This document shows positions 121-24,077 of a stretch of DNA of 25,866 nt, in pieces (the first letter of the stretch is position 1; each line of letters starts with the position of its first letter). The stretch is from a virus. A program made the translations under genes and the position numbers. Under the pieces are notes generated by a model. The model did no database searches. It saw only the letters and a list, made by a program, of their open reading frames with translations, and had not been told where the DNA came from. The stretch covers positions 1 through 25,866 of the IMG/VR virus record IMGVR_UViG_3300028802_000052, one strand, 5' to 3'.

Positions 121-1203
121 GTGGTTACCACAGTGACCACGACGCAAAGCAGTACACCCGTCGCCGCCCCCACCCGTCGCGCACTGCAGGTGCTGACGAA
201 CTCACAGCTCAAGACCTACCGCTCCTGCGCGGTCGAGCACCATTACCGTTACGAGCTCGGCTACAAGCCGCTCGGCGACGACCCCGAGGCCCTGCGATTC
301 GGGTCGCTCTTCCACTTGGGCCTCGAGGCGTGGTGGCGCGCGTATGCGACACCGGACCTGCAGCTGTCAGCGGCACTCGACGCAATCCGCCCGCACGCCG
401 TGGACGACTACGACTTGGCACGCGCGGGCGTGCTGATGCAGGCCTACGACGCGCGATGGCACGATTCGCTAGACGTGGAGATCTTGGGCGTCGAGCTCGA
501 GTTTCGCGCGGACCTGAAAAACCCGGCGACCGGCGCGAAGTCGAAAACGTTCGGCCTCGGCGGCAAGCTCGATGCGCTCGTGCTCAACCTGTCGGACGGC
601 CGCGTATACATAGTCGAGCACAAGACCAGCGGCGAAGACATCTCGGCCGGCTCGACGTATTGGAAACGGTTGCAGCTCGACTCACAGATCAGCACGTATT
701 TCGCCGGGGCACGCGCCCACGGCATCGAGATCGCCGGCTGTCTATACGACGTGATCGGCAAGCCGCGTCACGCACCGCTGCGCGCCACGGCCCCCGAGGC
801 CCGCAAGTACACGAAGGCCGGCGCACTCTACGCCAATCAGCGCGACGTCGACGAAACGCCCGACGAGTTCCGGTTGAGGCTGACCGAGGAGGTGCTAACC
901 AATGTCGACAAGTACTTCCAACGCGGCTTTGTGGTGCGCTTGCCTGAGGAAGAAACCGAGGCCGCTCACGACGCGTGGCAAACGGCGATCTTGATCCGCG
1001 ACGGGCAGCGGTCCGGCATCCGCGCTCGTAACGTGCAGTCATGCGAGCGTTACGGACGCATGTGTTCTTTCTTCCCCGTGTGCACGCGCCAAGCGTCGCT
1101 CGAGGATTTCACCGTGTACCAACGCGTAGACAACGTGCATCCCGAGCTGTCACCAGATTTCGTGATGCCGGCACAAAACACTAACGGGCAGGCCGCCGAG
1201 TGA
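121..1203 (+). CDS. RecB/Cas4-like PD-(D/E)XK exonuclease with Cys cluster
   Basis: This 360-residue protein has the layout of the RecB/AddB/Cas4-type nuclease family. Motif G61-x3-H65 is followed by GGKLD (D151), EHK (E166, K168) and QISTY (Q189), the usual metal-binding and catalytic series. C36 near the N terminus and C308, C315 and C321 near the C terminus fit the four-Cys iron-sulfur cluster of Cas4/AddB proteins. In phages such enzymes resect double-stranded DNA ends to give single strands for recombination. Start is GTG 121, after an in-frame TAA at 82-84; no strong SD is visible, so the start is moderately uncertain. The gene overlaps the next by GTGA (1200-1203), implying translational coupling with a Sak4-like ATPase. 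No cas1, cas2 or CRISPR array is present, so the role is phage recombination. Processing direction cannot be read from sequence. Confidence 0.85.
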   Translation: MVTTVTTTQSSTPVAAPTRRALQVLTNSQLKTYRSCAVEHHYRYELGYKPLGDDPEALRFGSLFHLGLEAWWRAYATPDLQLSAALDAIRPHAVDDYDLARAGVLMQAYDARWHDSLDVEILGVELEFRADLKNPATGAKSKTFGLGGKLDALVLNLSDGRVYIVEHKTSGEDISAGSTYWKRLQLDSQISTYFAGARAHGIEIAGCLYDVIGKPRHAPLRATAPEARKYTKAGALYANQRDVDETPDEFRLRLTEEVLTNVDKYFQRGFVVRLPEEETEAAHDAWQTAILIRDGQRSGIRARNVQSCERYGRMCSFFPVCTRQASLEDFTVYQRVDNVHPELSPDFVMPAQNTNGQAAE

Positions 1204-2399
1204 CGGAACCACAACCAGCACCAACACCACCACACGAGGCACCAGCAGTACCCATGGCACCAGCAGTACCAGCCACCAAGCAGTCACCGACCGGCACCGC
1301 AGCACCTTCCCCCGCACCGACCGCAGCCCAGCGCGCAGCACTTGCCGCAGCCGCAGCCGTGGCACGAGCCACCCGAGCCCAGCCGCCGTCAGCGGCAGCC
1401 CCCGCCAACGCGTCGCAAGTCGTGCTGCCGGCGAAACCATCCGGGCGCATGGCACTCGGGAAGGTGATCAAGGGCAGGCTCGCAAAACCCATGCGGCTGC
1501 TGGTGTACGGCATCGAAGGTGTAGGCAAGTCGACGTTCGCCGCGGCGGCACCCGCGCCGATCTTTCTCGGTGCGGAAGACGGGACATCGGAGCTCGACGT
1601 AGAGCGCTTCCCACAGCCGCAGACGTGGCTCGACGCCTTGGAAGCCGTGGCCGAGCTCACCACGGCGGCGCACGACTATCAGACACTGGTGATCGACACG
1701 CTCGACTGGCTCGAGCCGCTGTGCTGGGCGCACGTGTGCCGTGAGTCGCGCGACGACAACGGGCGGCCGTACCAGTCGATCGAAGACTTCGGCTACGGGC
1801 GCGGCTACGTGGCTGCACACGACCAATGGCGGCGGCTCGCGTCGGATCTCGAGACGTTGCGCACGAAGCGGCACATGCACATTATTCTGCTGGCGCACTC
1901 TGCGATCCGCACCTTCCGCAATCCTGCCGGCGACGACTTCGATCGGTACGAGTTGAAACTTCACAAAGCACCGAGCGGCTATTGGCGCGAGTGGAGCGAC
2001 GCGGTTTTATTCGCCAGCCACGACTTGAACACCGTCAAGAAAGCAGGCCGCATCCGCGGTGTAATGGGCAATCAGCGCGTGCTGCACACCGAGCGCACCG
2101 CGGCGTGGGATGCGAAAAACCGTTACGACCTGCCCGCGCGGCTCGCGCTGGACTGGCAAGAGTTCGCGGACGCGGCAACGGCGCACAGGCCCGCGGACCG
2201 TCGTACGCTACTCGCGCAGATTGAAGCGCAGCTCGAGGCACTAGCCGCGGACGAAACGCGCGTAACACGAGCTCGCGCGGCACTCGCACGCGCGGTCGAA
2301 GAAAACGACGACGCGGAAATCGCACGGATCGCAAACAAGCTTGCGGCGATCATCGCCGCGGCGACCGAGACACAGGACACTGCACAGGAGCCACAATGA
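1200..2399 (+). CDS. Sak4-like RecA-fold ATPase (recombination/annealing)
   Basis: This 399-residue protein carries Walker A GIEGVGKS (104-111), a Walker B-like strand LVIDTLDW with D166, and a sensor-like strand IILLAHS near 230. That is the pattern of the AAA_24/phage nucleotide-binding family to which Sak4 belongs. Sak4 proteins are minimal RecA-like ATPases that promote single-strand annealing and act with SSB. Residues 1-80 are Ala/Pro/Thr-rich low complexity, unusual for the family; translation could instead begin at M84, just before the fold. The GTG start at 1200 is supported by the GTGA overlap with the nuclease gene. The C-terminal about 65 residues are Ala/Glu-rich and probably helical. 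An ATGA overlap joins it to the SSB-like gene, so the three proteins are probably made together and act on the same DNA ends. Confidence 0.85.
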   Translation: MTEPQPAPTPPHEAPAVPMAPAVPATKQSPTGTAAPSPAPTAAQRAALAAAAAVARATRAQPPSAAAPANASQVVLPAKPSGRMALGKVIKGRLAKPMRLLVYGIEGVGKSTFAAAAPAPIFLGAEDGTSELDVERFPQPQTWLDALEAVAELTTAAHDYQTLVIDTLDWLEPLCWAHVCRESRDDNGRPYQSIEDFGYGRGYVAAHDQWRRLASDLETLRTKRHMHIILLAHSAIRTFRNPAGDDFDRYELKLHKAPSGYWREWSDAVLFASHDLNTVKKAGRIRGVMGNQRVLHTERTAAWDAKNRYDLPARLALDWQEFADAATAHRPADRRTLLAQIEAQLEALAADETRVTRARAALARAVEENDDAEIARIANKLAAIIAAATETQDTAQEPQ

Positions 2400-3756: not shown

Positions 3757-4164
3757 ATGCAGACACTCGCTGTCCCCGCCGCACAGCAGCCCTTGATCGT
3801 CACGAGCTACCAGCTGGCCCGCATCAGCAACGTGCACGTTGACTTGTGTCACCGCTGCGCAACCGCCGCCGACCACGACTGCGGCGATCTCGGGCCCGTG
3901 GCCCGTGGCCCGCACCGCGGCCAGTGCCACGGCGTCAAACACTCTGCGCCGGTACGGTGCGAGTGTGGCCAGTGGTCCGGCGAGCCGTGCGACGACGTAG
4001 CGCCCGCCGATACGATGGTCACGATCGAGGTGACGCCGCTATCAGAGCGCCACGCGGATGGCGGGGAAGGTGCAGCGATGATCATCCGCGTCACGGGTGA
4101 ATGCGCGGCATGGATCATCGAGGCCGATCCGTCGTGGTCACGCATCGCGATCGGTGCGCTGTGA
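3757..4164 (+). CDS. Cys-rich small protein, first gene of the partition-like operon
   Basis: This 135-residue protein has seven cysteines in its first 80 residues: CHRC (C31, C34), C42, C57, CEC (C68, C70) and C78, with interspersed His. It probably binds one or two zinc ions. The C-terminal 50 residues look like a small alpha/beta region (MVTIEVTP, MIIRVTGE, AWIIEADP). The frame is open upstream to 3427, but ATG 3757 has AGGAG 11 nt before it and follows a good promoter. The stop overlaps the ParA start by GTGA (4161-4164), so the two are coupled. I do not recognise the family. Its position ahead of parA suggests an accessory or regulatory role in partition, by inference only. Confidence 0.72.
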   Translation: MQTLAVPAAQQPLIVTSYQLARISNVHVDLCHRCATAADHDCGDLGPVARGPHRGQCHGVKHSAPVRCECGQWSGEPCDDVAPADTMVTIEVTPLSERHADGGEGAAMIIRVTGECAAWIIEADPSWSRIAIGAL

Positions 4165-4922
4165 GCCGCGCCCGCGTGATCGCGGTGACGAATCAGAAAG
4201 GCGGCTCGTGCAAGACGGCGACCGCGGTCAATCTCGCGGCCGAACTCGCCGCGCGCGGGCGGCGCGTCTTGCTGGTCGACCTTGACCCACAAGGCAACGC
4301 GTCGACGTACGTAGGCCAGCGATCGGACGGGCGCGCGCTGCTCGACGCCCTGACGACCGGCGGGCCACTCACGGTCACACGTGCAGACTGCGGCGTAGAC
4401 GTGGTCGCGGCGGGCGAATGGCTCTCGGCGGCGGACAAAATGCTCGCGCGAGAAGTCGGGGCCGAAACCATCCTACGTACGGCGTTGCGGGCCTTGCCGC
4501 GTCGCTGGGATGTCGTGCTGATCGACTGCCCCCCGAGCATGGGGATCCTTTCTGCGATGGCGCTTACCGCCGCCCACGCGGTGCTCGTACCGGTGCTCAC
4601 CGAGGCCGCGGCCTTGGAAGGTGTGGCGCTCATCATGCGCACGGTCGAGCGCGTGCGTGCGCGGCTGAATCCGCAGCTCGCGGTCGCAGGCGTGATCGCG
4701 TCGCAGACGAACACCACGCGGCTGTCGCGCAGCGTCGAGGCCAAGCTGCGCACGCAGCTCGGTGACGACGTGTGCTCGACCGTGGTGCGCCGCAACGTGG
4801 CGATCGCAGAGTCGTACTCACACCAGCAGCCGATCCGCCTATATGCGCCCGACTCGATCGGCGCGACCGATTACGCCGCCCTAGCCGCAGAACTGACGAA
4901 ACGTAAGCAGGTGACAGCATGA
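4161..4922 (+). CDS. parA: ParA-family partition ATPase (small type Ib-like)
   Basis: This 253-residue protein contains the ParA/MinD signatures: deviant Walker A KGGSCKTA (13-20), Walker A-prime DLDPQGN (40-46) and Walker B VVLIDCPP (118-125). It lacks the N-terminal DNA-binding extension of P1-type ParA, matching the short chromosomal/type Ib plasmid class. ParA proteins bind DNA non-specifically as ATP dimers and move plasmid cargo. The Walker A is unusual: the glycine before the invariant catalytic lysine is Cys, and the residue after the Thr is Ala where Thr or Ser is usual; both lysines remain. GTG 4161 is chosen because it overlaps the previous stop as GTGA; an ATG 60 nt upstream (4101) would add 20 unlikely residues. 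An ATGA overlap leads into the ribbon-helix-helix gene. Confidence 0.9.
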   Translation: MSRARVIAVTNQKGGSCKTATAVNLAAELAARGRRVLLVDLDPQGNASTYVGQRSDGRALLDALTTGGPLTVTRADCGVDVVAAGEWLSAADKMLAREVGAETILRTALRALPRRWDVVLIDCPPSMGILSAMALTAAHAVLVPVLTEAAALEGVALIMRTVERVRARLNPQLAVAGVIASQTNTTRLSRSVEAKLRTQLGDDVCSTVVRRNVAIAESYSHQQPIRLYAPDSIGATDYAALAAELTKRKQVTA

Positions 4923-5299
4923 GCCGCCCCGCCCTAGCCGCCGATCCGTTCGAAGCCGTCACCGCACCGCCGCAGCCTGCAGCCGCTCGAGGCCGCAAAG
5001 CCGCGCCCGTGCCGGCTGCCGCGGTCGGCTCGGCTGCTCACCGCGTAGGCACGATCGCGACCCCGTACACGCGGCAAGACGGCGTGCAAGTGCGCCAGTG
5101 GTCCGCAACGCTGCCCGTAGATATCGTCGAGGCGCTGCAGATCGCGTCGATTCAAGAGCGCCGCAGGCCGGCGGACATCGTTGCCGACTTGATCGCTGCG
5201 CACTGCGGGCTGCAGCCTGCGGCGGCACCGTCGCCCAAGCCGCGCGCGGCCAAGACTTCCACCACCAAGCCCAAGCCCCGTAAGACCCGCAAACGTTAG
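4919..5299 (+). CDS. Ribbon-helix-helix protein, probable ParA partner
   Basis: This 126-residue protein begins with an Ala/Pro-rich tail (1-55), followed by a compact region at about 58-95. That region reads as a beta strand (VRQWSATLPVD) and two helices (IVEALQIASIQER and PADIVADLIAAHC), the order of a ribbon-helix-helix fold. The C terminus (103-126) is strongly basic with KPKPRKTRKR. It lies directly after parA with an ATGA overlap, where ParG/omega-type centromere-binding partners are found. In those systems the ribbon-helix-helix dimer binds repeats upstream of the operon, represses it and stimulates ParA ATPase. The repeats at 3519-3740 are the natural target here. It is not a ParB with an HTH domain. 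Confidence 0.68.
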   Translation: MSRPALAADPFEAVTAPPQPAAARGRKAAPVPAAAVGSAAHRVGTIATPYTRQDGVQVRQWSATLPVDIVEALQIASIQERRRPADIVADLIAAHCGLQPAAAPSPKPRAAKTSTTKPKPRKTRKR

Positions 5300-5310
5300 G
5301 AATGCAGCTG

Positions 5311-5751
5311 ATGGCGTACATCGTGATCAAAGACGATCGAAGCGAAGAAGGTTTTTTCACGTATCTGATCGACTCCGACGCGGACGAAAAGACCGCGCGT
5401 GACGCGCTGCGCGATGCCGGTATCGCGTGTGCCGCAGTGTGGAACGGCGCCCCGGACTGCCCCGACGCTTTCAAGAGCACCCGGCTGTTGTTCGCGTCCG
5501 CGGGCCCGATCATCCGCGAAAAGCCGGAAGGCATGCCGGGCGGGTCGTACCAGGTGACATATTATCGCGTGACGAAAGCCGGCACATTCAAGCAGCGCCC
5601 AGACTACGATCGCGACGTCTCCGAAACTTACGTACGCAGCATGGCCGCAAAATTGGGCGAAAACGAGGCGCTGCACGCGGTCTGCAGGTCACAGCCGGGG
5701 GGCATGTGGGCTTATGGGTCGCTCGATGCAGAGGCCGCGAACGAGCGCTGA
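5311..5751 (+). CDS. Small hypothetical phage protein
   Basis: This 146-residue protein of mixed charge has no motif I recognise. It begins MAYIVIKDD and appears alpha/beta, with strands near the start (YIVIKD, GFFTYLID) and around 84-88 (YQVTYYRV). There is no signal peptide or membrane segment. ATG 5311 is preferred over ATG 5302 because AGGA at 5298-5301 lies 9 nt before 5311 but directly abuts 5302. It begins 11 bases after the ribbon-helix-helix gene and may be the last gene of that operon. Confidence 0.65.
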   Translation: MAYIVIKDDRSEEGFFTYLIDSDADEKTARDALRDAGIACAAVWNGAPDCPDAFKSTRLLFASAGPIIREKPEGMPGGSYQVTYYRVTKAGTFKQRPDYDRDVSETYVRSMAAKLGENEALHAVCRSQPGGMWAYGSLDAEAANER

Positions 5752-10078: not shown

Positions 10079-11632
10079 TTACACGAGCGGCATTTTCTTG
10101 ATGCGCACGGATGCCGTGCCGACGATCGTCGCGAACTCGATTTCGTATGCGGTAATCAGGTTGATTCCTGACGCTGGATTGTCGTCGGTGATCCCGGTGT
10201 CGCGCCGAATCGTACGGCCCGCGATCGACAGCGTAAGCGTGCGACTGCCGGTGCCGTCTTGCTTGACGTATAGCGACAGCCGCACGCCATCCACGCCGCC
10301 TGTAAGCGTCAAGGTTGAATTGCCGGTCAGGTTGTTGGACGCGGCCCACACACCGCCCACGCCTGCGACCGCGATCGACGCTGCGTTAGTCGCCCATGCG
10401 AACGTCCCGCCGGTACCGACCGCGGCAAGTCTTGGATCTGACCCCTGGCAAAACGTGCCGGAAGTCGATCCAAATGCGGGCAAGGCGTGCACATGATCGG
10501 ACCGCACGAGCGTCACTGCCGATCCCGGTGCGTTCGCACCGCCCACTACGAGCGCAACGGGCGTAGCCGTCGCCGGCAGCGCATGCACGTGGTCACTCAG
10601 CGCGAGCGTCGCTGCCGCGCCTTGAGTGTTGCTCGCGGCCAGCGTTAGCGCTGTCGGTACGCCCGCCGCCGGCATCGCATGCGCGTGGTCAGCTCGAGCC
10701 AGCGACGCGGACGTGCCGGGCGCCTGCGCACCGCCCACCGTGAGCGCCGCAGGTGCCGCAGTCGCCACGCCATGCACGTGATCGCCGTGTGCCGCCGCCG
10801 TGTCGCCGCCCACGGCTGCAGCGGTGACAGTGATCTGCGTGGGCGCTGCAGCGGTGAGAGCCAGGCCCGCTGGCAAAGCCGCAAACCCTGCGTGTGTCGC
10901 ATCGGTCGCGATCAGCGCCTGGCCGGGCGTCGGCACTGGCGAACCTGCGAGTTCAACATTCGCACCACCCGCAACCACGATCCGCTTCGCGCCGCCTGCG
11001 GTGTCACTGACTAAGCCCCAAATCGACGATCCATCCTCATGATAGAAAATCCATTCGTAATTCGCGCCCGGCAGCAGCACGGCACTCGGGCCACGCAAGC
11101 CGTCTAGCCCTTGGATCTCCGACGTGCCCAGCACGTTGACTTGCACGGGCACGGTGACGTCGCGGTGCACGTACAGCCCGAAACGCGCGTCTACTGGCGG
11201 AGCTTCGAGTGATGACACGATATAGACAACTAGCGATGTAGTCCCCACCGGCGGCGGCCAGATAAAACCCCACGTGCCGGGCAAAACCGTGGCAACGCCC
11301 GTGGTACTCGTCCAAAATTTAATTGACGGGTCGTAGTGCAAGCCGGGCACGCGCCAAATGGAGTGCTCCGCGTCTGCAGCTGTCAGTACCTGACCTTCGA
11401 CGGGCGGCGCAGACGCTGCGACGTCCACGGGTGCGCCAGTCGTCGCTAGGCTGCTCGCGGTCGCGCTGCCCGCACCGTCCGCACCGGGCGGGCCAGGTGG
11501 GCCAGGTGGGCCCGCTGCGCCGTCTGCGCCGGGCGGGCCAGCGGTGCCGGGCGCACCGGGCGCACCGGGTTTCGGGCTGACGATCACGGTCAGCGTGGGC
11601 GGCGTGGGTATGGTGATCACGAAATCAGTCAT
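10079..11632 (-). CDS. Tail fibre with collagen-like segment and HxH repeats
   Basis: This 517-residue protein has four zones. Residues 1-21 are a short attachment peptide. Residues 23-55 form eleven Gly-X-Y triplets, a collagen-like trimeric rod. Residues 80-215 are a mixed beta region. Residues 265-385 hold four repeats with HxH pairs at H285/H287, H316/H318, H348/H350 and H380/H382, spaced about 32 residues and typically DHVHALP. After GTFCQGSDPRL (392-402) a beta-rich C-terminal domain (about 410-517) is likely the tip. HxH pairs in phage fibres (for example T4 gp37) coordinate metal along a trimer axis. ATG 11632 follows a G-rich ribosome site. Similar repeats in the gene before it suggest duplication. 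Confidence 0.82.
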   Translation of the reverse strand: MTDFVITIPTPPTLTVIVSPKPGAPGAPGTAGPPGADGAAGPPGPPGPPGADGAGSATASSLATTGAPVDVAASAPPVEGQVLTAADAEHSIWRVPGLHYDPSIKFWTSTTGVATVLPGTWGFIWPPPVGTTSLVVYIVSSLEAPPVDARFGLYVHRDVTVPVQVNVLGTSEIQGLDGLRGPSAVLLPGANYEWIFYHEDGSSIWGLVSDTAGGAKRIVVAGGANVELAGSPVPTPGQALIATDATHAGFAALPAGLALTAAAPTQITVTAAAVGGDTAAAHGDHVHGVATAAPAALTVGGAQAPGTSASLARADHAHAMPAAGVPTALTLAASNTQGAAATLALSDHVHALPATATPVALVVGGANAPGSAVTLVRSDHVHALPAFGSTSGTFCQGSDPRLAAVGTGGTFAWATNAASIAVAGVGGVWAASNNLTGNSTLTLTGGVDGVRLSLYVKQDGTGSRTLTLSIAGRTIRRDTGITDDNPASGINLITAYEIEFATIVGTASVRIKKMPLV

Positions 11633-11645
11633 CGCCTGCCCCGAT

Positions 11646-13223
11646 CTAATAGGAGACTAACGCCATCATACCCGACTGAGCTGGGCCGTTGATTCCGAAG
11701 AACTCGACGTTGCCGGAGCCATACTGCAGCCACCAATACGCGGTTACCCCAAGCGTCGAGTTGACTGCGATGGCAGCCGAGATGGTGGACATATCAAACG
11801 GCGCCGAGGCTATGCGGGAGATGCCTTCCATGGTGCGCGCGCCCACAGGCGTTGCGTTGTTGACGCCGATACCTATCAGCGGAAACGAAATTGTCGTGGT
11901 CGTGTTGGATGTGTTCGCCGATGCCATCGCAGTTATCGAAACGGGATCGCCGGGCAAGCCCGCAATCGTGTCTATCTGCGCGTTGGCGCTTGCTGCCCAC
12001 TGTCGCCAGGTAGCCGTAGAATAAGCCTGATTTGCAACGGTGTCCGTGAGTTGGATAGCGGTCTGCTTTCTCAAATTTTCGTTGAAGTAGTCGATGCCGA
12101 CTGAGCCAGTGCTGACAGCGTTGAACCGTTGGACGCGGTATGTCGTCGCGCTGCGCGGTCGCACGCTGCCGAGGTAGCGGCGCGTCGCATCGCCTGACTT
12201 GACCCACACGCCGTTCTGCTTTGCGAGCGCGACCGCTCGGACCGTCGCAGACGTCCAGTTGACAGCCTCGAGCACGACTACCGATCCTGACCACGATGCG
12301 AACACATCGAAAGGTGTGCCGGCGGTGTGCCCCGCGAGCGTATAAGACACGCCGGATGCCGACCGCAGCACCCAGGCCGATCCGGTGTACAGAGCAATGA
12401 GATCACCGCCGACCGGCGCGAAATTGACAGCCGTAAAAGCTCCATCCGCCGGGATGCTGTCATCCGTCGTCGGAGCGAGCCGGAAACCGTTTACGGCAGG
12501 GTTTACAAGCAGTCTTGCGTCATTGCCTTCGCAGAACGTGCCCGCGGCGATGCCGAAATTTGCGAGCGGGTGTGCGTGATCTGAACGCGCGAAAGACGCA
12601 GCCACACCAGACGACGCAGTTGCACCCGGCACGACGATCACGGGCGTGCCGGCAGGAGGCATCGCGTGCACGTGGTCAGCTCGAGCGAAAGATGCGGACG
12701 TGCCCAGCACCTGCGTGCTGCCGATGATCAACGCCGCAGGCGCCGCCGTGGGTATGTCGTGCGCATGGTCGGCCCGAGCGAACGTCGTAGCGGCACCTGC
12801 ACCGTTCGCCAAATTCGCCGTGAGCTGCACGGGCGCAGCCGCCGCCGGCATGGCGTGCACGTGGTCCGCTCGGGCGACCGACGCAGACGTGCCTATCGCT
12901 TGGGCACTGCCGATCGCCAGCGCTGTAGGTGCCGCCGTGGGCAGCGCGTGCACATGGTCAGCGTGCGCTGCCCCGGCATCGGTGCCGATGGTTGCGACCG
13001 TCGTAGCCGTTACTTGCGCGGGCGCAGTGGTCGTCGTGAGCGCTGGTCGATCGCCGTCCAGATACACCAGCCACTGATATACGAGGTTCTGCAGCCAATT
13101 CGCGAGCTGGGCAGTCAGGATCGTCTGCGGGATATGCCCGACGTCTTGCTCGGTCGATGTGGGCGCGGCGATCACGGCCGTGCCGCCCGTGGCCCAACGT
13201 GGAAACGCAGTAGGACGTGCCAT
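11646..13223 (-). CDS. Tail fibre with five HxH repeats
   Basis: This 525-residue protein has an N-terminal module (about 7-53: FPRWATGG, then ANWLQNLVYQW) that matches the start of the Asp-box fibre at 15457-16746. Five HxH repeats follow (H90/H92, H121/H123, H153/H155, H184/H186, H216/H218; period about 31-32), then GTFCEGNDARL (228-238). The C-terminal about 285 residues are beta-rich and probably form the receptor-binding part; their coding DNA looks more AT-rich than the repeat region. The start has an excellent AGGAGG located inside the last codons of the preceding gene. It is likely a trimeric host-recognition fibre. No chaperone gene for it is evident nearby, unless the 117-residue protein plays that role. 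Confidence 0.83.
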   Translation of the reverse strand: MARPTAFPRWATGGTAVIAAPTSTEQDVGHIPQTILTAQLANWLQNLVYQWLVYLDGDRPALTTTTAPAQVTATTVATIGTDAGAAHADHVHALPTAAPTALAIGSAQAIGTSASVARADHVHAMPAAAAPVQLTANLANGAGAATTFARADHAHDIPTAAPAALIIGSTQVLGTSASFARADHVHAMPPAGTPVIVVPGATASSGVAASFARSDHAHPLANFGIAAGTFCEGNDARLLVNPAVNGFRLAPTTDDSIPADGAFTAVNFAPVGGDLIALYTGSAWVLRSASGVSYTLAGHTAGTPFDVFASWSGSVVVLEAVNWTSATVRAVALAKQNGVWVKSGDATRRYLGSVRPRSATTYRVQRFNAVSTGSVGIDYFNENLRKQTAIQLTDTVANQAYSTATWRQWAASANAQIDTIAGLPGDPVSITAMASANTSNTTTTISFPLIGIGVNNATPVGARTMEGISRIASAPFDMSTISAAIAVNSTLGVTAYWWLQYGSGNVEFFGINGPAQSGMMALVSY

Positions 13224-19616: not shown

Positions 19617-21632
19617 TCATGTCCCCCCACGCCGCGGGATCGCTGCCGCCGCGCGCTTGCGTTGATCGTCGAATGACTTGTCGACCGTTTTCTTGATGAG
19701 CTCGGGGTCGCCGTGGATGTTGATCACGGGCGCGGGCATCGACACGTTGACCGACATGTTTTCGGGCATCGTCGACGCCCCCGGCGCAGCTGCCGAGGCC
19801 TCGAGAGCCGCCGCCGCGTAGTCGCTGATCGATTCGGTCGCGGCCCCGACGTCGTACTGGCCCGGCAGCGTCGATGCGCCGCCCGATGCCGCCGTTAGCG
19901 CCGCAATCCGTGCCGCTTCCGCTTCCGGTGTGCTCGACCATTCGGGGGACTTGAGTGCCTCTGCGTTTTCCCGCGCCTTGCGTCGCGCCTTGGCTGACCA
20001 CGCCGTGCCCGGCGTCATCTCGACGCCGGCAGCTGCCGCGGCTGCCGCTTGCTCTTGCTGGTAAAGCTCCTCGGCGTCTTCGCGCTCTTGCTTGCGTCGC
20101 CGGATGCCTTCGCGCCTCGTTTCCTCACGGCCTCGACGTCGGTCGCGGTCGAACTGGTCCTGCTCCGACGATTCTTTGCCGTACGCATCCGCGCCCGAGC
20201 CGCGCGTCTTGGCGTATTGGTAGCTCTTGCGCTCCATTTCCTTCACGTCGAGCAAGAGGCCCTTGGCGTGCATCGCGCGGATATATTTGTTCTGCGCGTC
20301 AATGATCGGATTCATCAGCCAGTCATCGACCTTGTCTTTGAACGCGGCGAGATCTGCGCCGCGATCCTGATTCGGGCCCGCGAAGCGGTTTTCAATCAGA
20401 TCGAAAGCCCCGTCGAGATCACCCAGCTGCTGGACTAGCTCAGACACATACCCGATCGACCGCTCGATCGTTGCGTTGAGTTTCTTGAAAAACGTGATCG
20501 TGCCTTCAATCAGCTTGTTCGTCGTGCCGATGCCGAATGACTTGTCGAGCCATTCGCCGATCACGGTTTTGCCGCCGCGAAATAGGTTCCAAAGCTCATC
20601 AATGAGCAGAACCATCGCGCCGATCATCATCAGCGGCACCGCGAACGCCAGCAGCGTTTCTCGCCCGAGCCACACCACCACGGCGCCCAGCGCGAGAAAT
20701 GCCGACTCTAAAACCTTCGTGCCCAAGCGCGCCTCATTGAACCACTTGATCAGCTCGCGCCCAGCTCGCACGAGCTTTTCGAACGCCGGGATCGCCTTGC
20801 GGGCCATGTCGATGCCAAGCGTTTTGATCTGCGCCTGCAGTGCTTTTGTCGCGTTCGCGAAACCTTCACCCGTACGCGCAGCATCGCCCTGCGCTTGCTT
20901 GGTGCGGGCCATGATCGCCTGGTAGCGGAGCTCGGTTTTCTCCGCGACCGTCATTTGCGTGACTTTTTTCTTGATGCCTTGCGAGTGCGCTATCTCCGCA
21001 AGCGTCGAGTCATTCAAGACCACGCCGTAACGCTTGAGTGACTCGTATTCGCCCGTCAGGCCGGACCGTAAGGCCAACATCGCGTCTTGGTCGGACGTAT
21101 TGAAAAACGATGCAAGGTCGACTGCTAGGCCTGACAATGATTCGGCCATCAGCCGCGCTTGATCTTGTGTCTTCGTGATCGGCCCGAGCACCGAGCCGAG
21201 CCGCGCGGAATATGCCTGCAGGTCGTATGCGGAACGGCCCATCGCCTCGCCCATGGCGTGCGACCATTCGTCCACCTGCTTGGCACCTTCGGTTCCGAAG
21301 ATCTGCCCGATCGCCGATGCCGTTTCATTCGCGTCCGACGCGAGCTGCACGAACTCGTTCAGCTTCGCGCCGATGCCCAGCGCCGCGAGCTGCCGCCCGA
21401 GCATGGCGAAGGTTTCATTCAGCTTGGACGCGGCTTGCTGCGTCTCGTTTACGGCCTTCGTGGTGTCTTTGGCGGTTTGCTCGGGCGCGCTCATGCCCGA
21501 CTTGGGCGCCCCGCTCGAGCTGCCCGACGTCAGCGACTTGTGCAGATCTTCGATCTGCTTTTCCGCCTTGCGAAAAGACTCCTGGTCGACCACGAAACCC
21601 AGCCGCGTGATCAGCTCGCGTACCACCGTCAT
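19617..21632 (-). CDS. Tail tape measure protein
   Basis: This 671-residue protein is mostly helical, with an N-terminal coiled region (5-80), repeated ASDANETASAIGQIFG-type motifs, a long hydrophobic stretch at about 308-345 (FLALGAVVVWLGRE, AFAVPLMMIGAMVLLI) and a charged C-terminal half (RRRGREETRREGIRRRKQER, about 493-512). Tape measures set tail length; at roughly 1.5 angstrom per residue this predicts about 100 nm, a short-to-medium tail. The hydrophobic stretch may help membrane penetration. Start ATG 21630-21632 overlaps the stop of the frameshifted chaperone (ATGA), which fixes the start. Confidence 0.92.
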   Translation of the reverse strand: MTVVRELITRLGFVVDQESFRKAEKQIEDLHKSLTSGSSSGAPKSGMSAPEQTAKDTTKAVNETQQAASKLNETFAMLGRQLAALGIGAKLNEFVQLASDANETASAIGQIFGTEGAKQVDEWSHAMGEAMGRSAYDLQAYSARLGSVLGPITKTQDQARLMAESLSGLAVDLASFFNTSDQDAMLALRSGLTGEYESLKRYGVVLNDSTLAEIAHSQGIKKKVTQMTVAEKTELRYQAIMARTKQAQGDAARTGEGFANATKALQAQIKTLGIDMARKAIPAFEKLVRAGRELIKWFNEARLGTKVLESAFLALGAVVVWLGRETLLAFAVPLMMIGAMVLLIDELWNLFRGGKTVIGEWLDKSFGIGTTNKLIEGTITFFKKLNATIERSIGYVSELVQQLGDLDGAFDLIENRFAGPNQDRGADLAAFKDKVDDWLMNPIIDAQNKYIRAMHAKGLLLDVKEMERKSYQYAKTRGSGADAYGKESSEQDQFDRDRRRGREETRREGIRRRKQEREDAEELYQQEQAAAAAAAGVEMTPGTAWSAKARRKARENAEALKSPEWSSTPEAEAARIAALTAASGGASTLPGQYDVGAATESISDYAAAALEASAAAPGASTMPENMSVNVSMPAPVINIHGDPELIKKTVDKSFDDQRKRAAAAIPRRGGT

Positions 21633-21868
21633 CGGGGCGCCCTCGCTACACGTCGATCGAGTTCTTCGTACATGTCGAGCACGGCGTGCGCCTCGTAAAG
21701 GTCGTCAAGCGACCACTGGGTTTGAACGGTGATCAGGCTGTCGGAGTAGTGCTCGCTGCTGGCGATCCGGTGGATATCCCAGTCGATGTCGGTAGGGGCT
21801 GCAACACTGATAGGAGCTTGGTCAAACGCCCGAGCAGCCCGCTTGCGCTGCTCGACACGGCGAAAAAA
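21629..21868 (-). CDS. -1 frameshift extension of the tail assembly chaperone
   Basis: After slippage at 21868-21862 the -1 frame continues for 77 codons from CGC (21862-21860) to TGA (21631-21629), giving a 210-residue fused product. The extension reads RRVEQRKRAARAFD, then ISVAAPTDIDWDIHRIASSEHYSD and WSLDDLYEAHAVLDMYEEL, a charged, clearly protein-like sequence. The zero-frame tail instead is a Ser/Thr/Pro-rich 42 residues. Its stop overlaps the tape measure start as ATGA, and this reading fills what would otherwise be a 100-base gap. Fused GT-type chaperones coat the tape measure during tail assembly. No separate start codon or SD serves this frame. Confidence 0.85.
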   Translation of the reverse strand, partial: FFRRVEQRKRAARAFDQAPISVAAPTDIDWDIHRIASSEHYSDSLITVQTQWSLDDLYEAHAVLDMYEELDRRVARAPR

Positions 21869-22260
21869 CTCGCAAAATTTACCTCACAGCAGTACCGCAG
21901 CCACGCGAACATCTCGTCATACCGGCCCGCGAAATGGTCGTCATAGACGTCGGACAAGCGCAGCTCGACGTCGCGCGATTTGACGACGATCGTGTACGTC
22001 GCGAACTCATCGCAGATCGCAGACAAGTCGTCGTCATTCAGCCGCAAGCACAGGTCATGTAGCCCGTCTGCGATCCCGAGCGCGAGCCCCCCGTCGAAGG
22101 TTTGGTCTTTGCTGCGCCCGAGCCCGCCCACGAAAGACCCCGCACCAGGCCCCACGAGGCGCACGAACCGCACCAGCATCGACCGCCCACGCTTAGCGGG
22201 CAGTTGTGTCACGCGGTACGTCACGCCGCCGATGCGCTTTTCTTTGGCCTCAATCGCCAC
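21733..22260 (-). CDS. Tail assembly chaperone (zero-frame, G-type)
   Basis: This 175-residue protein lies between tube and tape measure, the standard chaperone position. It has a beta-rich start (KRIGGVTYRVTQLPAKRG), a helix (ADGLHDLCLRLNDDDLSAICDEFA) and FAWLRYCCEVNFASFF (118-133), where the slippery heptamer falls. After F133 the zero frame gives a low-complexity Ser/Thr/Pro tail to its stop. It begins with GTG 22260, three bases after the tube stop. The shorter product is normally made in excess over the frameshifted form. Confidence 0.85.
   Translation of the reverse strand: MAIEAKEKRIGGVTYRVTQLPAKRGRSMLVRFVRLVGPGAGSFVGGLGRSKDQTFDGGLALGIADGLHDLCLRLNDDDLSAICDEFATYTIVVKSRDVELRLSDVYDDHFAGRYDEMFAWLRYCCEVNFASFFAVSSSASGLLGRLTKLLSVLQPLPTSTGISTGSPAASTTPTA
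21862..21868 (-). promoter_or_regulatory. Slippery heptamer T TTT TTC for programmed -1 frameshift
   Basis: On the minus strand, zero-frame codons AGT TTT TTC place a perfect X XXY YYZ heptamer (T TTT TTC) at codons 131-133 of the chaperone. After a -1 slip both tRNAs re-pair with TTT. This is the usual arrangement in tail chaperone genes of siphoviruses and myoviruses. No strong downstream stem or upstream SD was confirmed by eye. Confidence 0.85.
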
Positions 22261-22263
22261 GCG

Positions 22264-22707
22264 TCAGCGCCCCCCGATGAACGTCGCGACGCTGGCGTCG
22301 GCTAGCTGGATTTTCCATTGCAGCGTCTGAATGGTCTTGCCCAACGTGACGGACGGGTAGGCCATCACCCAAGCGCGCTCGGCAGCGACGACCATGCGGC
22401 CCGACCGGTCGCGCGCGGAAAACATGCCGGCCCCTGCCCCGTTCGGCGTGCTCATGTCGGCCTTGAGCATCGCCGTCAGGCGGTCGTTTGCCGCCGCCGT
22501 ATGCGCATACGTCAGTGTGACCGTCGCTAGCCCGTTGTTCGTCGACGCGCGGGACACCTCGCCGTCAGCCCCCACGAAGGCCGTGAATTGATCTTCGGCC
22601 CACTCCAGAGCCATGACTTCGTCTTCGCCGTAGCCGCCATCGTCGAGCGGTACCGCGTTGAGCGATATCGCCAAATCTCGGATGTTCCATGCGCGCATGT
22701 TGGACAT
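22264..22707 (-). CDS. Tail tube protein (DUF3277-like)
   Basis: This 147-residue protein has the size and look of a contractile tail tube subunit: an N-terminal beta segment (MRAWNIRDLAISLNAVPLDDGGYGEDE), a central sheet with GLATVTLTYAHTAAANDRLTAML, and MFSARDRSGRMVVAAERAWVMAYPSVTLG, ending in KIQLADASVATFIGGR. DUF3277 proteins form hexameric rings. AAAGGATC lies upstream of ATG 22707. It follows the sheath gene and precedes the chaperone, as expected. Confidence 0.87.
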   Translation of the reverse strand: MSNMRAWNIRDLAISLNAVPLDDGGYGEDEVMALEWAEDQFTAFVGADGEVSRASTNNGLATVTLTYAHTAAANDRLTAMLKADMSTPNGAGAGMFSARDRSGRMVVAAERAWVMAYPSVTLGKTIQTLQWKIQLADASVATFIGGR

Positions 22708-22745
22708 GACTGTTAGATCCTTTCGACCTTCCCCGCCCTATGCGG

Positions 22746-24077
22746 CTAGACGGCGGCGACCAGCACCGTCCCGTTGATGAGCACTTTGTTGATCGCGCCC
22801 TGCAGCACGAACTGGAATTTGACGTTGCGTAGGATGCGCGCGATCTTGTCCGCCGATGGCACGTCAGCGACCGCCGGCACGGCTGACCACCAGTCTTGAT
22901 CGCCGTCTGCGATCGTCGCTGTGATGGCCTCGAGGATCTGCGCGTCGACCTGCCCGCGAATCAGCGCTATGCCCTTGTCGGTGTAGGGCACCTTGTCATT
23001 GTTCGCGAGCACACCAACGATTCGCTCCTCGAGCCGCGCTTCAAACCAGTCAGTGCCCTGTGTGATGTCCGCGAATCGACCCGACGCCGCGCGACCGTCG
23101 AGCGTGAACCCGATGCCCTTGATCGCGACGTAGTAATTGACGTTTTTCGTCTTGAGGTTGCCGCGTGCCGTATCGTCGAGCGGCGACATATCCACTAGCG
23201 CTAGAGCCTTATTCGCCCAGTTGGCCGCGCCCGGCGTCTTGGGTAGCATCTTCCCGAGCCACGCTGCGCCCGCCCATTGTTCCGCCGCGCGGTGATGCCA
23301 CGTTGTAAACGTGCGCGTAATCGATGCCGCTTTCAGCTGCGTACCGATGTCCGTGGATCCAGCGCCGATGGCGTCAGAATCCATCGTCGTCGGCCAAAAC
23401 ATGACGGTGTTAGTCTCCGCCCAATTCGCCGCGGCTAGGATCTCCGCGGGCCCCGTGGAATCGATCACGAGGCCGTACCAGTCCTGATCGTACGCGCGGA
23501 TCGTGTTCAGGTCCGTGGCGATGCTGGTGACGGGATCGGGCGTCGACTCCAAATAAGCGATATTTTTCGATGAGCACGAAAACGAATAACGCGTGCCCGC
23601 CACTGACGCGGTCACGGTGACTACGGTCGCCGTCGCCACGGCAGTCACACCGAGCGGCGGCGTAGCGCCCGTGATGGCCGCAGCGATGGCCGTGCAGGCC
23701 TGCGCGACGGTGCCTGCCGCAGCAACGCTTGCGGTCAGTGCCTTGCCGTTGATGGCGAACGTGTACGTGGCGCCCGCCGCGGTGACGGTCGGTGTTAGCG
23801 TCGCAACCTGCGTCCCCTTGCCTGCACGGGTGCCGATCTTGAAGGTGGCAGGCGATGGCTTTTGCGCTTTCATCGCTTGCGCCATCAGATACACGGGATG
23901 CGTGATCGGCACCGCGAGCGGCGGCGTCACGAGCTGCACGAGCTCGCTGAACGTGCGCACGGTTTCAGGCCAAAACGCGTGCGATGCGACGATCATCGGC
24001 GTGCCGAAACCCTGCTGGGCTACAGCCGCGTCCCGGATGTCGATCGTCACGTCTACGACTTCGATGGTAGTTGTCAT
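22746..24077 (-). CDS. Tail sheath protein (DUF3383-like)
   Basis: This 443-residue protein follows the DUF3383 sheath pattern. The N-terminal part has GFGTPMIVASHAFWPETVRTFSEL (23-46). A Thr/Ala-rich beta insertion covers about residues 78-175 (ATLTPTVTAAGATYTFAING, GVTAVATATVVTVTASVAG). The C-terminal alpha/beta domain includes DWYGLVIDSTGPAEILAAANWAETN and DWFEARLEERIVGVLANNDKVPYTDKGIALI. Sheath subunits surround the tube and contract at infection. ATG 24077 has AGGAG 8 nt upstream. The insertion probably decorates the sheath surface. Confidence 0.9.
   Translation of the reverse strand: MTTTIEVVDVTIDIRDAAVAQQGFGTPMIVASHAFWPETVRTFSELVQLVTPPLAVPITHPVYLMAQAMKAQKPSPATFKIGTRAGKGTQVATLTPTVTAAGATYTFAINGKALTASVAAAGTVAQACTAIAAAITGATPPLGVTAVATATVVTVTASVAGTRYSFSCSSKNIAYLESTPDPVTSIATDLNTIRAYDQDWYGLVIDSTGPAEILAAANWAETNTVMFWPTTMDSDAIGAGSTDIGTQLKAASITRTFTTWHHRAAEQWAGAAWLGKMLPKTPGAANWANKALALVDMSPLDDTARGNLKTKNVNYYVAIKGIGFTLDGRAASGRFADITQGTDWFEARLEERIVGVLANNDKVPYTDKGIALIRGQVDAQILEAITATIADGDQDWWSAVPAVADVPSADKIARILRNVKFQFVLQGAINKVLINGTVLVAAV

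Follow-up and report, generated by a model that had tools for sequence, protein, structure and literature searches.

Many long-tailed phages are known to obtain two versions of a tail-building helper protein from a single gene through a one-base backward slip of some ribosomes. Phage lambda encodes a short tail assembly chaperone and a long, -1-frameshifted one (G/GT) ahead of its tape measure gene (PMC5009743), and in the contractile-tail phage P2 a -1 shift likewise takes place before the tape measure, in E/E' (PMC5009743). In the Vandenendeviridae and Andersonviridae (Pseudomonas phage Adele and relatives), a homologous chaperone with a -1 extension is found before the tape measure, and the same frameshift, with an invariant GTTTTT motif, was independently proposed for these families in a study published in 2025 (PMC12846349). 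In the loci of these families that we inspected, the zero frame reads GTT TTT and reaches its stop shortly afterwards, whereas the locus described here has a canonical T TTT TTC and a zero-frame tail of 42 codons; the letters GTTTTT are also present in it, but in another phase.

The window, i.e. the whole stretch of DNA that was analysed, comprises 25,866 bases and comes from a virus record. By comparing sequences, we are highly confident that a programmed -1 ribosomal frameshift on its minus strand gives a short and a long tail assembly chaperone. This would extend the tail-chaperone frameshift to a large set of metagenomic viral contigs and would add a protein segment of 77 codons that is likely to escape gene callers. 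One chaperone family appears to use at least two types of slippery site, the canonical T TTT TT(C/A) and GTT TTT. The main features of the locus, from high to low coordinates, are:

22746-24077, minus strand: tail sheath (PF11863 DUF3383, 1.4e-19; PHROG 205 tail sheath, 3.9e-88)
22264-22707, minus strand: tail tube candidate (PF11681 KPP10_Orf10, 8.9e-10; PHROG 280 virion structural protein, 1e-25)
21733-22260, minus strand: zero-frame ORF of the short tail assembly chaperone (175 aa), with a GTG start at 22260 and a stop ending at 21733
21862-21868, minus strand: putative slippery heptamer T TTT TTC, codons 131-133, phase checked
21632-21862, minus strand: -1-frame extension, 77 sense codons, homologous across all compared loci and with -1 substitution periodicity
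21629-21632, minus strand: ATGA, in which the stop of the -1 frame overlaps the start of the tape measure
19617-21632, minus strand: tape measure protein, 671 aa (PHROG 1535 tail length tape measure, 1.4e-18)

An earlier interpretation of this DNA from its letters alone (the sequence-only reading) had called the gene a tail chaperone. This is borne out by Pfam Phage_TAC_15 (PF21822), which matches the N-terminal part of the protein (aa 11-138) with an E value of 7.8e-18 and 65.7 bits against a curated cut-off of 22, by PHROG 1613 tail assembly chaperone (E 4e-17), and by the position of the gene between the tail tube and the tape measure. This position is that of lambda G/GT-type genes, and the site is also of their kind, with a phased heptamer late in the short ORF and a -1 frame that has no stop before the tape measure is reached. 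On these features the gene appears to be a lambda G/GT-type chaperone, for which the frameshift in related phages was already published in 2025 (PMC12846349). Neither the lambda G family nor the P2 E family was among the window's Pfam or PHROG matches. The -1 extension alone had no match in Pfam or PHROGs, the fusion product had none in NCBIfam, and neither the chaperone profile nor the extension profile gave a credible match to a solved structure. A DNA similarity search of phage records returned no matches, and the genome contigs that were searched contained no relative of the -1 extension and one distant chaperone.

At 22264-24077 (minus strand), a single tail-tube-like gene is located between the sheath and the chaperone. 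In related Pseudomonas phages this interval holds three structural genes, an arrangement that was termed tube triplication (PMC12846349).

The T TTT TTC that had been claimed at codons 131-133 is present at 21868-21862 on the minus strand, the strand having gone unnamed in that claim. It has the phase X XXY YYZ (offset 392, mod 3 = 2) and the codon context AGT TTT TTC. The site of P2 E/E' is a T-run heptamer as well. The open -1 stretch of 77 codons, the 210-aa fusion product and the junction S-F-F-R-R could all be reproduced from the sequence; the first base of the extension is the re-read C of the heptamer, and the extension is followed by TGA at 21631-21629. As had been claimed, this TGA overlaps the tape measure ATG (21632-21630), and ATGA or GTGA overlaps of a similar kind occur in many relatives. 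The 100 bases expected to be non-coding without a frameshift were located at 21732-21633, ahead of the tape measure.

In the proposed mechanism, most ribosomes would read T TTT TTC in the zero frame and produce the short form of 175 aa. Some ribosomes, when UUU occupies the P site and UUC the A site, could move back one base and re-pair on UUU UUU, after which they would read 77 more codons and produce a long form of 210 aa that ends where the tape measure starts. If the proteins work as in lambda G/GT, the N-terminal part common to both forms would attach to the tape measure, and tail tube subunits would be recruited by the part encoded in the -1 frame. We infer the slippage itself and its rate, as well as the partners of each chaperone part in a G/GT-like complex, from lambda and related phages (PMC5009743).

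Judged from this one sequence, the heptamer is suggestive of a -1 frameshift site. TTTTTTC occurs three times in the window, with 0.63 expected, and phased T TTT TT was found at 0 of 4,724 phased sites in the 14 other tail-region genes tested. A phased T6 appears in 1.8% of codon-order shuffles of the chaperone gene, and long alternate frames are common in single GC-rich sequences, both of which would allow the heptamer and the open -1 frame to be a chance combination in a GC-rich genome. However, chance is refuted by the conservation in relatives, the -1 periodicity and the invariant residues of the extension, leaving it with a negligible probability. As a single-sequence heptamer is only suggestive, it is the conservation across relatives that settles the frameshift site.

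Matches to the fused protein were found in 34 Pseudomonas phage records and, in 32 of them, at least 80% of its length is matched as two pieces in different frames. All 11 of the Pseudomonas phage records that were inspected have GTT TTT in the zero frame at the site, with a -1 frame that is already open ahead of the zero-frame stop and remains so until it reaches, or comes close to, the tape measure start. Pseudomonas phage REC has an annotated, joined two-piece CDS spanning 617 nt, which is one short of a multiple of three and therefore fits what a -1 join gives.

Scans of viral contigs found many relatives closer than the Pseudomonas phages, and conservation was determined in 72 non-redundant loci with both the chaperone and the extension, the window included. 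The sequence-only reading had stated that relatives lacking the heptamer, or with stop codons in the -1 frame, would refute the frameshift. T TTT TT was found in the same phase in 66 of the 72 loci (next base C in 49 and A in 17), a count that covers homologs with both parts rather than all chaperones of the family, because the loci were chosen partly by their match to the extension profile. In all 66, the -1 frame stays open from the heptamer through the whole of the extension. The six loci without T TTT TT(C/A) are distant relatives that still keep the homologous -1-frame extension. Two of them (L010 and L011) are Pseudomonas phages with the GTT TTT site, as published, and L128 has another canonical heptamer, G GGT TTC. 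For the remaining three (L092, L123 and L126), a recognisable slippery heptamer was not found at the site, and their retention of the -1 extension counts against the ribosomal frameshift model. Taking the comparison of relatives as a whole, the frameshift is very likely.

Codon usage at the site indicates that selection there acts on nucleotides and not on the protein only, because Phe is encoded by TTT in 66/66 cases at the site compared to 110/453 in the same ORFs, and Leu at the last slippery codon is encoded by TTA in 17/17 cases compared to 10/919 (about 1%) in the same ORFs.

A T6 run that is both present and conserved could also cause slippage of RNA polymerase, which is known to occur on homopolymer runs (PMC5009743); this would result in mixed mRNA, with the fusion being read from part of it. 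Polymerase slippage needs no phase, however, and all 66 runs are in the phase for tandem slippage with TTA or TTC as the last codon, although this argument is weakened by the conservation of the amino acids at that point. The runs are also shorter in L128 (G GGT TTC) and in the Pseudomonas phages (GTT TTT). A run of six T would also be short for polymerase slippage, and we consider this explanation quite improbable compared with slippage of the ribosome.

The pattern of substitutions shows where the coding frame changes. Over 146 ungapped pairs, the differences at zero-frame codon positions 1, 2 and 3 were 0.172, 0.135 and 0.354 before the heptamer and 0.066, 0.309 and 0.076 after the zero-frame stop, where the peak of 0.309 falls on position 3 of the -1 codons. 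Between the window and one relative (L001), the extension has a pN/pS of 0.15, and W28, W50, D53, D54, A58 and H59 are among the residues that do not vary in the first nine sequences. Its pN/pS, invariant residues and periodicity show that the -1 extension is under selection as protein.

Such a segment could instead be a separate gene with its own start, expressed without any fusion, and a small ORF is often annotated here in related phages. The first part of the window's extension contains no ATG, GTG or TTG, which makes a separate gene unlikely; among the 66 loci, 36 are without any of the three in the early extension and 55 are without ATG. A separate gene would also leave the conserved, phased heptamer unexplained, so that we regard it as highly improbable and favour the ribosomal frameshift.

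Eight relatives (L081, L082, L083, L086, L087, L089, L090 and L091) have a common SPGF motif in the -1 frame of the early extension. The motif perhaps reflects an element of the overlap that is conserved at the nucleotide level.

For the ribosomal frameshift, two candidate stimulators were identified around the heptamer:

21881-21885, minus strand: GAGGT, Shine-Dalgarno-like, ending 12 nt upstream of the heptamer, with support at the level of the family only
21831-21854, minus strand: predicted stimulatory hairpin CGAGCAGC/GCTGCTCG, with a perfect 8-bp stem, 7 nt after the heptamer

Both kinds of stimulator have been described, and the structures generally begin 5-8 nt downstream (PMC4066793). 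The 30-nt segment holding the hairpin ranks within the most stable 0.1% of window positions; the 60-nt segment is ordinary, and so is the 90-nt downstream fold (z -0.56). Stems of at least 8 bp starting 5-9 nt past the site were found in 21 of 66 loci compared to a background of 2.7%, with many differing sequences, although the P value printed for this enrichment is too small as the loci are not independent. Stems from different lineages do not align. For the Shine-Dalgarno-like site, the anti-SD pairing energy of the family was -7.06 compared to -5.54 in synonymous shuffles, and was reached by 0 of 100 shuffles; in the window alone the pairing is not significant, half of the synonymous shuffles reaching it. 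This lack of significance in the window, the ordinary 90-nt downstream fold and a hairpin that is weak or absent in many relatives count against the frameshift model. Based on the sequence, the hairpin and the GAGGT site are likely to be frameshift stimulators, and together they would probably raise the slip rate.

Past the heptamer, the same bases could be read in both frames:

21736-21861, minus strand: zero-frame tail of 42 codons, overlapping the -1 extension and analysed by substitution classes

This zero-frame end had been described as low complexity, which holds for its last part, rich in S/T/P/A, but not for its first ~25 codons, which appear to be selected in the zero frame. Against a neutral expectation with a simple transition weight of 2, and with modest counts that give roughly 3 standard deviations, changes silent in the zero frame and non-silent in the -1 frame were in excess over codons 1-25 after the site (67.5 vs 40.0 expected; 19 relative pairs), changes silent in the -1 frame and non-silent in the zero frame were in excess over the rest of the overlap (42.0 vs 21.4 expected; 19 relative pairs), and changes non-silent in both frames were depleted in the two parts (36.0 vs 61.6 and 22.5 vs 38.9, respectively). 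The per-position substitution rates of the overlap are flatter, as expected where both frames constrain the sequence. The constraint therefore seems to be in the zero frame for the first ~25 codons and to pass to the -1 frame after that.

Due to the excess of zero-frame-silent changes, the first ~25 residues of the short form's tail probably have a function, and for them a similar pattern of hydrophobic residues could be seen by eye in several relatives. The openness of the zero frame was rejected as a sign of selection, because the length of the tail is ordinary (observed mean of 40 codons vs 44 in simulations given the -1 protein); it is the substitution classes that provide the evidence. 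We see an even chance that the frameshift swaps the C-terminus, the short form carrying the selected, perhaps helical tail of ~25 residues and the long form a variable linker and a conserved domain. If so, isoforms with mutually exclusive C-termini would be made from the same bases, and the constraint on the overlap in two frames provides a testable idea on the tail of the short isoform.

Elsewhere in the window, T TTT TTC occurs once more in the slippery phase, at 5352-5358 (plus strand), early in the ORF 5302-5751. As a frameshift site it was rejected, with a -1 product of just 33 aa, and it is probably due to chance. At 4101-5299 (plus strand), a ParA-type partition ATPase (PHROG 164, 7.4e-54; Pfam AAA_31) is followed by a small ORF (4919-5299) with no Pfam match; genes for partition may be a sign that the prophage is maintained like a plasmid. 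A PD-(D/E)XK exonuclease-like gene adjoins a Sak4-like single-strand annealing ATPase at 121-2399 (plus strand), and the pair is a recombination module. Finally, two adjoining large proteins at 10079-13223 (minus strand) have repeated DHVHALP-like segments in common, the first of them also containing a collagen-like Gly-Pro stretch (weak Pfam match), and they are likely to be tail fibre paralogues.
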